Virus record (IMG/VR): IMGVR_UViG_3300031999_000157
Span: 1 to 28,853 of that record
Length of the DNA: 28,853 bases
From: a virus
Reading direction: 5' to 3' (one strand)
The translations under genes and the position numbers were made by a program. Shown piece after piece: positions 1 through 28,853 of the stretch (position 1 is the first letter of the stretch; every line of letters starts with the position of its first letter). Under the pieces are notes generated by a model. The model searched no databases and was not told the origin of the DNA. It saw only the letters and a list, made by a program, of their open reading frames with translations.

Positions 1-2358
1 AGCAATGATTTTTCTAACTTTCATTAACTTACTAAACTGAACTGTCAATGATGAAGATTCGTCGGTTTTGTTCTCATACCAATCATAATATTCTCCCATC
101 ATTTCTTCATAATCTCTTGATGACAATCTTAAATAAACTGGGGAAATAATTTTGTCAGGTAAATCTAAAACTTCAGTTTTTAATCTTCTTAATGTTTGTT
201 TTGAAGTTCTATCCCTTAACTCCTCAAGGTTTGATGCCCCCTGAACATTCCACACTTTTCTTTTACCTGCCATAAATTGATAACCTTGACAATATCTTAT
301 CGCGAATGCCATCCAGTTTTGTGCGACCGGACTTTCAATAATGTTTAAAAGATTATAATAATTCATAGGACGAGATGTCATTGGTGTTCCCGTTAATAAC
401 CATACTCTTTTAATATCTTTAACAAATGAGTTAATAATTTTTGTTCGTTGGGCTTGAGCATTAGATATCATATGTGCCTCATCTAATATAACCAAATCAA
501 AATTACTTTGTAATAATAATGATGAATCTCGTTTCTTTGGGTCAGCATCGTGAAAGTTTTTTAGAATATCATAATTAACGATTACAAAATCATCTTCAGT
601 TGAAAACTTTTTACCTTCAGAAATATACACGCTACGGTCGGTATAATTCTCAATTTCTCGTTGCCAATTAATTTTTAAAGATGCTGGACAAATAATTAAG
701 ATTTTCTTTACACCTGTCTCTAACGCCGCAATAATTGTTGATGTTGTATTATGTGTTACAATACCGTACTCAACAACATATAATTTATCGGGAGAATCTA
801 CCGATATACAGACACATTCATCTTCACCAAATTTTTCAATGTTTTTAATGTATCTACCGGTTGGGTATTTCTTTGGTTCAATATATCTTTCCGACTTTCT
901 TTTTAATCGGAACGGATTCATACCTGAAGGTAATTTAATATTTAACCTATATGAGATATTACATTCAACCTTAACTCCATTTTTTTTATAATAACTTTTT
1001 CTTGATTTTTTTCTACAAATACCACCTAAAGTATGTACAATTTCGGCAACATCATCACACAGTTTTTCAGAAATAGTTGAAAATTCAGTTCCACAAAAAT
1101 TCCCATTTTTTCTTAACATACAATGACCATCCGTATCCATTAACCCTTGTAAAATTGATAATCTATTTTTGATTGATGAATATTTGTATATTTCAGGAAT
1201 AAATTTATTATGTGAACGGGAATCTTGTAATTTTAATTTGGTGATAGATTCTTTTAAGTTAATGTAACCTATCCTAACATTTTTATACGGAGTGTTTTCA
1301 ATTAAATTGAATTCCCCCAATAATTCGTCGTAATCGTCATTATGAACCCCAAATTTCACACTTGTTTTAGTAAAATGACCATCACCTAAAGATAATCCTA
1401 AAAGATATGGATCAATAGGTAACGAATCATTATTATTAAATTGGATGGGTTTAACAATCGGAATTTGCCATTTATTATTACCATTTGATGATTTATAATA
1501 AGTTTCTATTTCATAATCTTTAGTTGAATTGACTCCCACACCTTTTATTGTAATTTTACCTCCCTCAAACATTTGTTTTGTGGATAAAACTAATGATTTT
1601 TTTATTCTGTTATTTTTTCTATTTTTACCATAATTTGGTGAAGAAACTGACCACAAATGTTCGTTACAACATAATGTATAAAAACCATCATTAAAAGTTA
1701 TTTTATATAACTCTTTTTTTCCTTGAGGAAAAATACCTGTAACAGTACAGGGTTTACCATTACTACCAATAACACTATCTCCGATAAATAATTCGCCCAT
1801 TTTTTTAACACCATTTGGGGTATAAATTTTTGAAGAAGTGATCATGGCTTTCCCGAGTCCCATATCGTCCGCAAGAATAAATCTTTTGGAACCAACTAAT
1901 TTCTCAATTGCTTCTTTTTGGTGTGTAAGTGGTGGGCGGTGATCGTATTTACTGTAATCAATATCAACCTTCTCAATAGTGTGTGTTTTTATTAATGCTG
2001 ATTTGGGAACCCAAAGTTCAGTTAATTCATCCTTCTCAAAGAATTTACCCCAAATATGATATGACTTTTCTTTTTCAACCAAAAGTTTTTCCACATAAAT
2101 TTTTTCAGGAACTTCTAATAGATATTTTTCTTCAGCAAATTTTTTCGCAAAGTATGTGTCTAAATCAACCCATTTACGAGCAACCTTTGGTTTGACATCG
2201 TGATAAGTGTTTATGTAATCAGATTGGGTTCTAGTGGGATAAAATTTCTTACTCTTCTCTTTTTTAGTTTTTAATAATATGATATAGTTATTCGCACCTG
2301 AATAAACATCAAGTATTTCTAATGCCTTTTGTTCTATGGTTTTTGATACAATTTCCAA
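1..2358 (-). CDS. SNF2-family (SMARCAL1-like) DNA helicase, partial, with an in-frame intein
   Basis: The protein reads from about 2358 to the left window edge, where it is cut off; 786 residues are visible (419 helicase, 367 intein). Helicase motifs are clear: motif I ADDMGLGK ending at K170, motif Ia (CPASLKINWQREI), Walker B LVILDEAH with DEAH at 626-629, and motif III LLTGTP near 654-659. The stretch around SNLEELRDR followed by LRRLKTEVL resembles SMARCAL1-type annealing helicases. Motifs of the second RecA lobe lie outside the window. A phage protein like this could remodel forks or recombination intermediates, a role filled by UvsW in T4 (inference). There is no ATG in frame upstream of motif I; TTG at 2358 is my best start, but the frame stays open to 2473, so the start is uncertain. 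It is divergent from the neck gene at 2420. Confidence 0.92.
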   Translation of the reverse strand, partial: MEIVSKTIEQKALEILDVYSGANNYIILLKTKKEKSKKFYPTRTQSDYINTYHDVKPKVARKWVDLDTYFAKKFAEEKYLLEVPEKIYVEKLLVEKEKSYHIWGKFFEKDELTELWVPKSALIKTHTIEKVDIDYSKYDHRPPLTHQKEAIEKLVGSKRFILADDMGLGKAMITSSKIYTPNGVKKMGELFIGDSVIGSNGKPCTVTGIFPQGKKELYKITFNDGFYTLCCNEHLWSVSSPNYGKNRKNNRIKKSLVLSTKQMFEGGKITIKGVGVNSTKDYEIETYYKSSNGNNKWQIPIVKPIQFNNNDSLPIDPYLLGLSLGDGHFTKTSVKFGVHNDDYDELLGEFNLIENTPYKNVRIGYINLKESITKLKLQDSRSHNKFIPEIYKYSSIKNRLSILQGLMDTDGHCMLRKNGNFCGTEFSTISEKLCDDVAEIVHTLGGICRKKSRKSYYKKNGVKVECNISYRLNIKLPSGMNPFRLKRKSERYIEPKKYPTGRYIKNIEKFGEDECVCISVDSPDKLYVVEYGIVTHNTTSTIIAALETGVKKILIICPASLKINWQREIENYTDRSVYISEGKKFSTEDDFVIVNYDILKNFHDADPKKRDSSLLLQSNFDLVILDEAHMISNAQAQRTKIINSFVKDIKRVWLLTGTPMTSRPMNYYNLLNIIESPVAQNWMAFAIRYCQGYQFMAGKRKVWNVQGASNLEELRDRTSKQTLRRLKTEVLDLPDKIISPVYLRLSSRDYEEMMGEYYDWYENKTDESSSLTVQFSKLMKVRKIIA
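748..1848 (-). mobile_element. Intein (class 3 type, LAGLIDADG endonuclease) in the helicase Walker A motif
   Basis: This in-frame 367-residue insertion lies between K170 and the Thr expected next in the P-loop; removing it restores GLGK-TTST. Residue 1 is Ala, not Cys or Ser. Block A is AMITSSKIYTPNG. Block B holds NEHLW (H64, W66), block F is CVCISVD (C347 at the F:4 position), and the end is GIVTHN followed by extein Thr. W66, C347 and T365 form the W-C-T set that defines class 3 inteins, which use an internal block F cysteine as first nucleophile. Two dodecapeptides, PYLLGLSLGDG (D156) and LQGLMDTDG (D240), mark an apparently intact LAGLIDADG homing endonuclease. All splicing residues I can check are present, so it is probably active in splicing. 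Confidence 0.93.
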
Positions 2359-2394
2359 ACTAATTAGTTTTTTATAATAATAATCAATATATAG

Positions 2395-2410
2395 ATATTT
2401 ATCAATAAAA
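2395..2410 (+). promoter_or_regulatory. Candidate phage promoter (RTATTTATNNAT element)
   Basis: ATATTTATCAATAAAA begins 25 nt before the start of the neck gene at 2420, in the divergent gap. It matches the element found before ten other genes in this window. Promoter function is inferred from recurrence and position. Confidence 0.5.
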
Positions 2411-2419
2411 CAGTTTTTT

Positions 2420-2932
2420 ATGTCAAATAAAGTGCCAATTACGAGATTGGGTAAATTTTTTGGAGAGAATGATTACTCCCTGGATATTTCACTAGGTGAG
2501 GAATGGTTAGTTGGTGATATGAACTTTACTTGCGTTCTTTATCGTGTTGATAGATATAAAACAAAAACTGACGATGTGTATGGTGAAACTGTTGAGGATG
2601 GAGTTAAATTTTTACCCCCCGTTGAGTTTAATGCATATATTCAAGTATCGGCACCTGAAAACAAAATGATGGGTTCTACAAGAATTGATCAGATGGAACC
2701 TGGTAATATTAGAGTTTCTGTATATCAAAAAACTTTAGAAGATTTAGAAATTGACATAAATTTTGGTGATTATATTGGTTATTACGAAAGTGAAACTGTT
2801 GTTAGATATTATACAGTTAATAATGATGGTCGTGTTGTTTCTGATAATAAACATACATATGCCGGATATAAACCATTTTATCGCACTATTAGTGCATCAC
2901 CTGTCGGACCAAACGAATTTAGAGGATTATAA
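2420..2932 (+). CDS. Neck protein, T4 gp14-like (tentative)
   Basis: A 170-residue protein with no signal peptide or membrane segment. The order of features resembles the T4 neck protein gp14: a hydrophobic strand and acidic turn (FTCVLYRVDRY), a YGE motif (DVYGET), a proline-rich strand (KFLPPVEF), a GDYIGYYES strand pair and a YKPFYRTI strand comparable with GDLIYF and DPFYQL in gp14. It is shorter than gp14 (256 aa). The position also fits: T4 orders gp13, gp14 and gp15 before the sheath, and here a gp15-like gene follows after 2 nt and the sheath follows that. The call rests on recalled similarity plus gene order; without them it would be an unassigned virion protein. ATG at 2420 is preceded by an A/T-rich leader without a Shine-Dalgarno sequence. 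Confidence 0.5.
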   Translation: MSNKVPITRLGKFFGENDYSLDISLGEEWLVGDMNFTCVLYRVDRYKTKTDDVYGETVEDGVKFLPPVEFNAYIQVSAPENKMMGSTRIDQMEPGNIRVSVYQKTLEDLEIDINFGDYIGYYESETVVRYYTVNNDGRVVSDNKHTYAGYKPFYRTISASPVGPNEFRGL

Positions 2933-2934
2933 TT

Positions 2935-3972
2935 ATGGGATTACCAAAAAAAATAAAAAAAACATTACCACTAACTCAATCTAAAACCTTATACCCAAGA
3001 AGGGAGGAACTTAAGGAAATGATTGAGAGAGATGGGACTTATTTACCGAAATCGTTATTGCATGCCGATCTGGATAGAGGTTTTTTAGATTTTGTTAAAG
3101 ACGAATTAAAATGTGTCGTTGAAGGTAAAATAGTTCCTATGGTGGACATTTTAATTTCCACTCAAAATTGGAGTCAGTTTGTTGAAACTTGGAATTTCCA
3201 AAACATAGATAAAAACGCCGAACCCCCATTCATTACGGTTATTAGAACTCCTGAAGTAAAATACGGATCAAACCCTGCATTAAGATATAACATTCCAAAT
3301 AGAAGACAATATTATTACGCTCAAGTCCCTACTTGGGATGGACAAAGACACGGTATGGACATTTATAAAATTCCACAACCAGTACCTGTTGACATAAAAT
3401 ATACCGTTGCAATTATTTGTAATAGAATGAGGGAACTAAATAAGTTCAATCAAATTGTTCTTGAAAAGTTTTCATCAAGACAAGCGTATCAAAATATTAA
3501 AGGACATTACATTCCAATAGTTAATGATGAAATTACCGATGAATCAGTTTTAGATCTTGAGAAAAGAAAAGTTTATATACAAAAGTATTCATTCACTATG
3601 TTAGGATTCCTTATTGACGAAGAAGAGTTTGAGGTTCAACCAGCGGTTACAAGAATATTTCAAATGTATGAGGTTGATACTCAAACAAAAAAACGAAAAC
3701 CGAAAAAAGAAGAACCAATTCCACCTTCAACATATGTTACAACATATCCCGATGGAGTTCTTGATTCGACTCAAACATTTGAATACACAGTAAACTTACA
3801 TTTAACTAACACTTATAATGTTGATAGTTTTAGTGTATATGTGAATGGAGATTATTATGGAGACGGTTTGGATGAAATTCAAATTAATACTAACGATATA
3901 TTAACCACATCAGTTATTAAAACAAATCCGTCAGAGGAAGGTAGATTAGAGTTTAGTCAAACCTATTTATAA
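2935..3972 (+). CDS. Tail completion / sheath stabilizer protein, T4 gp15-like
   Basis: A 345-residue protein starting 2 nt after the neck gene, so probably translationally coupled. Residues of roughly 110-250 follow the gp15 pattern: a proline-led strand (PVDIKYTVAIICNRM), a helix with an NKFNQIVLEKF core, a conserved short strand and turn (HYIPIVND), then a lysine/arginine-rich strand (RKVYIQKYSFTMLGFLID). In T4, gp15 caps the tail tube and sheath and joins the tail to the neck. The protein is longer than T4 gp15 (272 aa); after residue about 250 there is a basic linker and a Thr/Asn-rich beta-like C-terminal region that may be an extra domain. The stop codon abuts the stop codon of the opposite-strand gene with no base between. 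Confidence 0.6.
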   Translation: MGLPKKIKKTLPLTQSKTLYPRREELKEMIERDGTYLPKSLLHADLDRGFLDFVKDELKCVVEGKIVPMVDILISTQNWSQFVETWNFQNIDKNAEPPFITVIRTPEVKYGSNPALRYNIPNRRQYYYAQVPTWDGQRHGMDIYKIPQPVPVDIKYTVAIICNRMRELNKFNQIVLEKFSSRQAYQNIKGHYIPIVNDEITDESVLDLEKRKVYIQKYSFTMLGFLIDEEEFEVQPAVTRIFQMYEVDTQTKKRKPKKEEPIPPSTYVTTYPDGVLDSTQTFEYTVNLHLTNTYNVDSFSVYVNGDYYGDGLDEIQINTNDILTTSVIKTNPSEEGRLEFSQTYL

Positions 3973-9345: not shown

Positions 9346-9401
9346 TTTTTTATCAACAATTAAAATACATCTATCCATAGACAATATTGTTAAATTCCTG
9401 T

Positions 9402-9416
9402 ATATTTATATATATG
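9402..9416 (+). promoter_or_regulatory. Candidate promoter giving a leaderless endonuclease transcript
   Basis: ATATTTATATATATG: the element ends in the ATG at 9414 with 12-nt spacing, as for the HAD and ribbon-helix-helix genes. It decides the start: a TTG at 9387 lies upstream of the element and is therefore unlikely. Confidence 0.5.
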
Positions 9417-10313
9417 GGAATTTTTATTTGTAAAATATGTGAAAAAGAATGTGAAGGAATTAATTCTTTACGATCACATTCTATTCAGAAACATAATATC
9501 TCCGCAGAAGAGATATATCTTAATTATATTTTAAATGGGGTAAAACCTAAATGTGAATGTGGATGTGATGAAACAACTAATTTTATATCGGTAGGTAAAG
9601 GATATTCTAAATTTATACAATCCCACCATAATAGAGTTCCGGGTAAAAATAATTACCACAAAAATCCTGAAACACATCAAAAAGCTATAGACACTCAAAA
9701 GAAAAATTGGAAAGAAGGGAAGTATAAAGGTTGGTGGGAAGATAAAACCCCGGAGACAATAAAAAAAATTGAGGGTATTAAAGAAAAATTACGGAACAAT
9801 AAAGAAAGAGGTAAAAGAATATCTGAAAAATTAAAAGGTATTCCAAAATCTGAAGAATCTAAAATAAAAAATTCGGAAACTCAAAAAAAAAGATTTAGAG
9901 AAAACCCTAAACTAAAAGAAGAGTTGTCAAAAAAAAGAATTAAATGGTTAAAAACAAAACAATCTAACAATAAAACTAAATTAGAAATTAAGTTTGAATC
10001 AATGTTAAATTTATTAAATGTTAAATACCAATATCAGTATGAGTTTGAAAAAAGATTGTTTGATTTTAAAATATTAAATGAAAACATACTAATTGAAGTT
10101 GATGGGGATTTTTACCATTGTAACCCAAATACTAAACATTCGGAAATTTTATATGAAACACAAAAACTAACCAAAAAAAATGATGAATATAAAAATTTAT
10201 TATGTCAAAATCACGGAATAAAATTACTTCGTTATTGGGAAAAAGATATTATTGAAAGACCTGAATGGATTATATCTGAACTAAAGAAAGAATTATGTTT
10301 ACAAAAACCATAA
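9414..10313 (+). CDS. Free-standing homing endonuclease (C2H2 finger, NUMOD-like repeats, Vsr/PD-(D/E)XK nuclease)
   Basis: A 299-residue protein from ATG 9414. The N-terminus is a C2H2 zinc finger (C6, C9, H22, H27), followed by a CECGC cluster (47-51) that may bind a second metal. The middle (about 85-190) is a highly basic helical region with repeated units such as ISEKLKGIPKSEE and NSETQKKRFRENP, like NUMOD DNA-binding repeats. The C-terminus (about 195-290) has a Vsr/PD-(D/E)XK core: LFDFKIL with D217, then LIEVDGDFYH with E228, D230 and H235, and LLRYWEKDI. It is unrelated to tail assembly and sits between the tube and chaperone genes, as free-standing homing endonucleases do in T4-like genomes. 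The domains look complete, so it is probably functional; the cleavage site is unknown. Confidence 0.85.
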   Translation: MGIFICKICEKECEGINSLRSHSIQKHNISAEEIYLNYILNGVKPKCECGCDETTNFISVGKGYSKFIQSHHNRVPGKNNYHKNPETHQKAIDTQKKNWKEGKYKGWWEDKTPETIKKIEGIKEKLRNNKERGKRISEKLKGIPKSEESKIKNSETQKKRFRENPKLKEELSKKRIKWLKTKQSNNKTKLEIKFESMLNLLNVKYQYQYEFEKRLFDFKILNENILIEVDGDFYHCNPNTKHSEILYETQKLTKKNDEYKNLLCQNHGIKLLRYWEKDIIERPEWIISELKKELCLQKP

Positions 10314-28180: not shown

Positions 28181-28339
28181 GGGAGAAGAAAAGTTGAAGA
28201 AGAAAAAAAGAAAGTAAAATTGGCAGTGTCTGTTGATCCTGAATTACCACAATACTTTAAGGATAAATCTATAAATTTATCTTCCCTTGTTAATAAATTA
28301 TTAAAAGATTATATTAAAAATGGAAACGAAAGTTTGTAG
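28178..28339 (+). CDS. Small ribbon-helix-helix-like DNA-binding protein
   Basis: A 53-residue protein. After a basic N-terminus (GRRKVEEEKKK) comes a strand (VKLAVSVDPEL), a helix (PQYFKDKS), a turn with NLSS and a second helix (LVNKLLKDYIKN), the ribbon-helix-helix layout used by phage repressors and antitoxins. The last 20 bases overlap the start of the HNH endonuclease gene in another frame, so the two are co-translated. A likely role is to autoregulate the endonuclease or assist its DNA binding (inference). It shares its layout, not clear sequence identity, with the minus-strand protein at 3973-4134. Confidence 0.65.
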   Translation: MGRRKVEEEKKKVKLAVSVDPELPQYFKDKSINLSSLVNKLLKDYIKNGNESL

Positions 28340-28853
28340 TAAATGTAAAGAAGATAAAAAAGTTTGTGAATTTGGTAATTCAAAAACATCTGATGATGGG
28401 TTATTATATTGTTGTAAAAAATGTAATAATGAACGAAGTCAAAAATATAGGAAAGAAAATCCTGAAAAAGTTTTAGAATTAACTAAAAATTGGAGGAAAA
28501 AAAATCCTGAATGGGTTTATGACCGCAATAGGAGATATCAAGAAGAAAATCCTGATAAAGTTAAACAAATGAAAAAATCTTGGTTAGATAAAAATCCGGA
28601 AAAAAGAAAAGAATACCGTAAAAATTATAAACCAAGAAAACAAGAACAAAGAAAAGAACGAAGAGAAGTTGACCCTGTTTTTAATTTGACTAATAGAATG
28701 AGGTGTAGATTGTGGAAATACTTGAAAATTCATAACATCACTAAAAAAAACAAAACTTTTGACATAGTAGGTTGTTCCCCCCAATTCCTCAAAGAACATT
28801 TAGAAAACCAATTTATTGATGGTATGGGTTGGGATAATAGCGGTGAATGGCAT
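28320..28853 (+). CDS. HNH-type homing endonuclease, partial at right edge
   Basis: 178 residues are visible before the window ends. The N-terminus is a zinc ribbon (C6-x2-C9, then CC-x2-C near 32-36: KTSDDGLLYCCKKC), typical of phage HNH endonucleases. Residues about 45-105 contain repeats of a unit built on (K/E)NPE/D with lysines, arginines and a Trp (KENPEKVLELTKNWRKKNPE, then EENPDKVKQMKKSWLDKNPE), probably a DNA-contacting linker. From about 120 the nuclease begins (NLTNRMRCRLWKYLK, then LKEHLENQF and GMGWDNSGEWH), just before the expected HNH core, which lies outside. It is translationally coupled to the small DNA-binding protein and sits downstream of uvsX, a typical site for phage homing endonucleases. 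Confidence 0.85.
   Translation, partial: METKVCSKCKEDKKVCEFGNSKTSDDGLLYCCKKCNNERSQKYRKENPEKVLELTKNWRKKNPEWVYDRNRRYQEENPDKVKQMKKSWLDKNPEKRKEYRKNYKPRKQEQRKERREVDPVFNLTNRMRCRLWKYLKIHNITKKNKTFDIVGCSPQFLKEHLENQFIDGMGWDNSGEWH

Follow-up and report, generated by a model that had tools for sequence, protein, structure and literature searches.

The virus record IMGVR_UViG_3300031999_000157 raises the question of what kind of element splits the ATP-binding loop of one of its helicases, and whether that element can still excise itself from the protein. The gene lies at the left end of the stretch analysed here (28,853 nucleotides, positions 1 to 28,853 of the record; the window), as an open reading frame at 1-2358 on the minus strand that runs as a single frame through the insert and ends at the window edge. 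It matches SNF2-rel_dom in a domain search (9.6e-29), in agreement with the SNF2 helicase proposed in a first-pass annotation made from the sequence. The N-extein (1849-2358, minus) ends in DDMGLGK with the Walker A lysine at position -1; its TTG start codon at 2358 is uncertain, and in an intein-free homologue, L082, the frame is open further upstream than this putative start. The C-extein (1-747, minus) starts with TTSTIIAALE, contains DEAH (motif II) and LTGTP (motif III), and ends at the window edge. Motifs I, II and III are thereby all found in the window, and motif VI (RAYRYGQ) is found in the full-length relatives L002 and L082; helicase reading frames in full-length relatives are about 590-630 aa long when the intein is left out.

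The insert is a class 3-type intein of 367 aa (748-1848, minus), running in frame within the helicase gene from Ala1 (GCC, 1848-1846) to a C-terminal Thr-His-Asn whose Asn367 is encoded by AAT (750-748). An in-frame intein insertion of this kind is far beyond chance. The junctions read DDMGLGK/AMITSS on the N-terminal side and GIVTHN/TTSTIIAALE on the C-terminal side, which places the insert between the Walker A lysine and threonine, the latter (745-747, codon ACA) being the +1 residue (G:8). The residues with a role in splicing are His64 at block B:10 (1657-1659), Trp66 at B:12 (1651-1653, TGG), Cys347 at F:4 (808-810, TGT), Thr365 at G:5 (754-756, ACA), and the penultimate His366 and terminal Asn367 at G:6 and G:7 (748-753), all on the minus strand; Trp66, Cys347 and Thr365 form the WCT signature, with Cys347 the predicted initiating nucleophile. 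All details of the earlier coordinates and residues that were checked on the DNA are correct. As the loop is split, it is reasonable to expect that the precursor helicase would not bind ATP before splicing.

Alleles lacking the intein, which the first-pass annotation had proposed to look for in related phages, are found and show the insertion to be clean. The closest is the viral contig L082, which is collinear with the window at the helicase but lacks the insert, with 98% amino-acid identity in the extein and 97% nucleotide identity on either side of the gap. Without the insert the helicase of the window reads DDMGLGKTTSTIIAALE, exactly as in this allele. When the joined exteins are used as the query, all 80 of the 80 loci fetched are intein-free and read DDMGLGKTT.

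Within the intein, approximately residues 140-325 (874-1431, minus) form a LAGLIDADG homing endonuclease domain, with matches to PF14528 and PF05204 and to the fold of PI-SceI; the match to LAGLIDADG_3 (PF14528) scores 7e-7, above the cut-off. Two LAGLIDADG motifs are present, each with its catalytic aspartate (D156 in LGDGH, 1381-1383, and D240 in DTDGH, 1129-1131) as recorded earlier, and the domain is a predicted endonuclease. An AlphaFold2 model built with 25 family sequences has a mean pLDDT of 89.7 and a pTM of 0.88, and as a whole it matches PI-SceI with a Z score of 25.7 over 316 residues. The splicing part alone matches the class 3 DnaB intein of M. smegmatis (Z 18.4, rmsd 1.5, 123 residues) and that of M. 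chimaera (DnaB1, Z 18.0) ahead of the class 1 intein gp41-1 (16.1), whereas a sequence search of the PDB scores gp41-1 and its engineered WCT mutant above the class 3 DnaB inteins. Fold and sequence therefore rank the classes differently; the gp41-1 WCT mutant is a class 3-like protein of artificial origin.

The variation among relatives at the same site bears on how splicing would start. Close relatives of the intein are encoded by 130 viral-contig stretches, 80 of which were fetched, and the conservation set comprises 54 distinct full inteins at the same K/T site, the window's included. His64, Cys347, Thr365, His366, Asn367, D156 and D240 are invariant in all 54, as is Thr+1, and Trp66 is present in 53, the exception being a phenylalanine in L078. 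Residue 1, in contrast, is Phe in 15, Ala in 11, Gly in 11, Cys in 10, Leu in 3, Met in 2 and Ser in 2, and ranks 22nd of the 367 positions in variability by entropy. Since these residues are varied and mostly non-nucleophilic, a nucleophile at residue 1 is excluded for most of the same-site family, and a variable residue 1 beside a fixed Cys347 and its partners would not be expected if residue 1 were the general nucleophile. The first-pass annotation had let its class 3 assignment depend on Trp66 at B:12 and Cys347 at F:4; both stand, and with Thr365, Ala1 and the pattern in the relatives they point to the same class. Ser or Thr at +1 is likewise typical of class 3 inteins (PMC5222942). Phenylalanine at B:12 is seen in L078 (intein 2354-3457) and, as read from a local alignment only, in L333, yet Ala1, the F:4 cysteine and the G:5 threonine are kept in both. 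In the family alignment the N-terminal seven residues of the intein belong to a small number of repeated types (FLPVNT, CEPKNN, GLINST, AEFVEN and AMITSS), some of them common to diverged inteins, possibly a trace of recombination at this end.

This pattern extends well beyond the SNF2 site. Matches to the intein occur in 757 records of a phage collection, and a broader alignment query finds wider relatives in at least 589 viral stretches. Among 97 loci examined from isolates, bacteria and viral contigs, with some members of the SNF2 clade counted again, the block F cysteine is present in every one and lies 21 residues from the intein end in 90; GK directly precedes the intein in 86, and the +1 residue is Thr in 87, Ser in 7 and Cys in 3. 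Apparent Ala, Ser or Thr at F:4 in 18 wide relatives proved to be local misalignments, the cysteine being found in all 97 by direct check. At other P-loop sites residue 1 may also be Glu, Val, Gln or Asp, and all homologues examined from phage isolates and bacterial genomes carry WCT. The set retrieved with gp41-1 consists mostly of N-terminal halves that start with Cys and have Phe at B:12.

We interpret the element, with a probability of about 0.93, as a class 3 intein that is full-length, probably active and equipped with a LAGLIDADG homing endonuclease, and that occupies the Walker A K/T position of an SNF2 helicase in a T4-like phage with a contractile tail. In the class 3 route the F:4 cysteine attacks the N-terminal junction, the N-extein passes to the +1 residue, and cyclisation of the asparagine frees the intein (PMC4031507, PMC5222942); the catalytic triad of Cys F:4, His and Thr with its packed Trp is taken by analogy from the M. 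chimaera DnaB1 structure (PMC7664689). Here Cys347, the member of a triad completed by His64 and Thr365 and with Trp66 packed against it, would attack the peptide bond between Lys(-1) and Ala1 to form a block F branched intermediate, from which the N-extein would move to Thr+1 (the block G intermediate). Asn367 would then cyclise with the help of His366, releasing the intein, and an O-N acyl shift would yield GLGKTTST with the ATP-binding loop restored. The endonuclease would cut the intein-free allele of co-infecting phages, and repair would copy the intein in.

The signature by itself is no proof of activity, because WCT grafted onto gp41-1 gives almost no splicing (PMC7664689), and a class 1 intein that has lost its residue-1 nucleophile and decayed, leaving the helicase inactive or supplied by another gene, would also show the Ala1 seen here, where class 1 inteins have a nucleophilic Cys, Ser or Thr; indeed Arth_1007, a class 3-like intein without the F:4 cysteine, is a known pseudogene (PMC3196547). 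However, the remaining catalytic residues of the present intein are intact, the F:4 cysteine is kept throughout the 54, the family is large, diversified and open in frame with a residue 1 that is mostly neither Cys nor Ser, and dN/dS is low in both the splicing and endonuclease parts, so that decay is very improbable. Slightly less probable still is a class 2-like route, in which Thr+1 would attack the N-terminal junction directly and Cys347 would not be needed. Ala1 is common to class 2 inteins, but those known are KlbA orthologues that carry Cys+1 and a G:6 serine (PMC4031507), whereas the present intein sits in an SNF2 gene with Thr+1, His at G:6 and an invariant F:4 cysteine.

The class 3 reading with continued activity and mobility is consistent with the evolutionary record of the locus. 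Between the window and L002, the splicing part has a dN/dS of 0.09 and the endonuclease one of 0.12, with dS in this pair near saturation, and over 15 pairs the ratio ranges from 0.00 to 0.36; these low values argue for retained function in both parts. Similarity in the intein tracks similarity in the extein only in part (Spearman 0.65): the window and L003 share 73.6% identity in the intein vs 43.9% in the extein, L024 and L029 share 94.6% vs 68.6%, and L002 and L064 show the reverse with 59.3% vs 74.1%. At least six changes in intein presence or absence, undirected as to gain or loss, map to starred branches of an extein tree, made by a quick method from a sample chosen by similarity. The 98%-identical intein-free allele, the mismatched identities and the low dN/dS together argue for an active and mobile intein, and with the patchy presence they fit a homing intein. 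An additional role as a switch would be compatible with all of this, redox or metal stress at Cys347 slowing splicing and delaying the helicase; oxidative stress, zinc and reactive chlorine are reported to affect splicing of mycobacterial DnaB inteins (PMC6195587, PMC7360933, PMC8557812), and the insertion does split the Walker A loop. Patchy presence and such closely related intein-free alleles suggest that the phages do not need the intein, however, and we regard this role as unlikely.

The first-pass annotation took a class 3 intein in an SNF2 helicase to be unusual, a view that precedents and relatives do not support. The Deinococcus radiodurans Snf2 intein, compared here through its description, is also class 3 by WCT in an SNF2-family protein, though with a bacterial host unlike the present phage intein, and splices in a model precursor (Brace et al. 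2010, per PMC3196547). In phage terminases the position between the P-loop lysine and threonine has been termed a 'classic' one for insertion (PMC5050341), and TerL1-a of mycobacteriophages, likened to the present intein by site alone, uses the same position (PMC5050341). With same-site relatives also abundant, the intein is one of a large family that environmental phages commonly carry, and exemplifies something known. A scan of bacterial genomes with the intein returns five bacterial loci, none of them the D. radiodurans Snf2 gene, and Deinococcus is absent from the matches listed in a plasmid search; one bacterial relative, L176 from Eremiobacterota, lies at the identical DDMGLGK/T sequence.

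Among other known systems, the inteins of PhiPA3 gp233, KP13-16 and Phrappuccino are alike in WCT and an endonuclease-sized insert, with 31-35% identity to the present intein; phage P-loop inteins of this sort mostly share a GK/T-type site but differ in their host genes (terminases and DarB-like proteins) and have mostly Ala at residue 1. The Mycobacterium class 3 DnaB inteins (PDB 6bs8 and 6rix) share WCT, the splicing fold and probably membership of the phage-linked class 3 family, but are mini-inteins without an endonuclease in a replicative helicase, with 24-25% identity by structural alignment. Inteins of the gp41-1 type, the best PDB match by sequence, also end in THN, but are class 1 with Cys1, Phe at B:12, Asp at F:4 and the insertion context RSGY/C. 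PI-SceI, the yeast VMA intein, has the same two-domain layout of splicing fold and LAGLIDADG domain but is eukaryotic, with 18% identity, and is a class 1 intein. Class 3 inteins have been described as monophyletic with a proposed phage origin (PMC3196547), and the finding of class 1 gp41-1 as the nearest sequence match bears on the debate over their descent from phage class 1 inteins vs a separate origin.

Some of the helicase genes carry a second intein. In L021 and L022 (4348-5442) it splits motif II (LVILDE/C...VSN/CHYIKN), and in L066 (2800-3885) it splits motif VI (QAEDR/C...VHN/CFRIGQ) and has its own endonuclease-like motifs. Both look like class 1 from their sequences, with Cys1, Cys+1 and Asp at F:4, in RVYDLEI at motif II and RVYDLSV at motif VI. 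We think it reasonably likely that the class 3 inteins at the SNF2 P-loop site make up a clade of phage inteins, large and diversified, in which residue 1 has been freed almost entirely, and that in some genes the class 3 intein of motif I is joined by one of class 1 type in motif II or VI; no description of the clade's size, of its residue-1 freedom or of genes with the added intein was found in the limited open-access literature. Few class 3 inteins have been characterised, and the clade enlarges the class by a large family from the environment; that residue 1 varies so widely while Cys, His and Asn stay fixed supports the block F mechanism independently, on evolutionary grounds. If residue 1 is indeed freed, these inteins amount to a natural panel in which the requirements of the N-terminal splice junction can be tested, and protein engineers could draw on them for class 3 inteins that tolerate various N-terminal junctions.

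The window also encodes proteins of tail sheath and tail tube families. The Bacteroidota host suggested earlier is plausible: four records of Flavobacterium phages (38.5% identity) are all that the UvsX-like protein matches among deposited phages, yet for the tail tube a Microcystis phage (42.4%) comes first and Flavobacterium phages next. Two further reading frames resemble endonuclease genes. A free-standing one at 9387-10313 lies between the genes for the tail tube and a baseplate-hub-like protein and has hits to DUF559 and to a PHROG of homing endonucleases. Another, at 28320-28853 downstream of the UvsX-like gene, is truncated where the window ends; its PHROG matches are to endonuclease VII and other endonucleases, and it may also encode a homing-type endonuclease.
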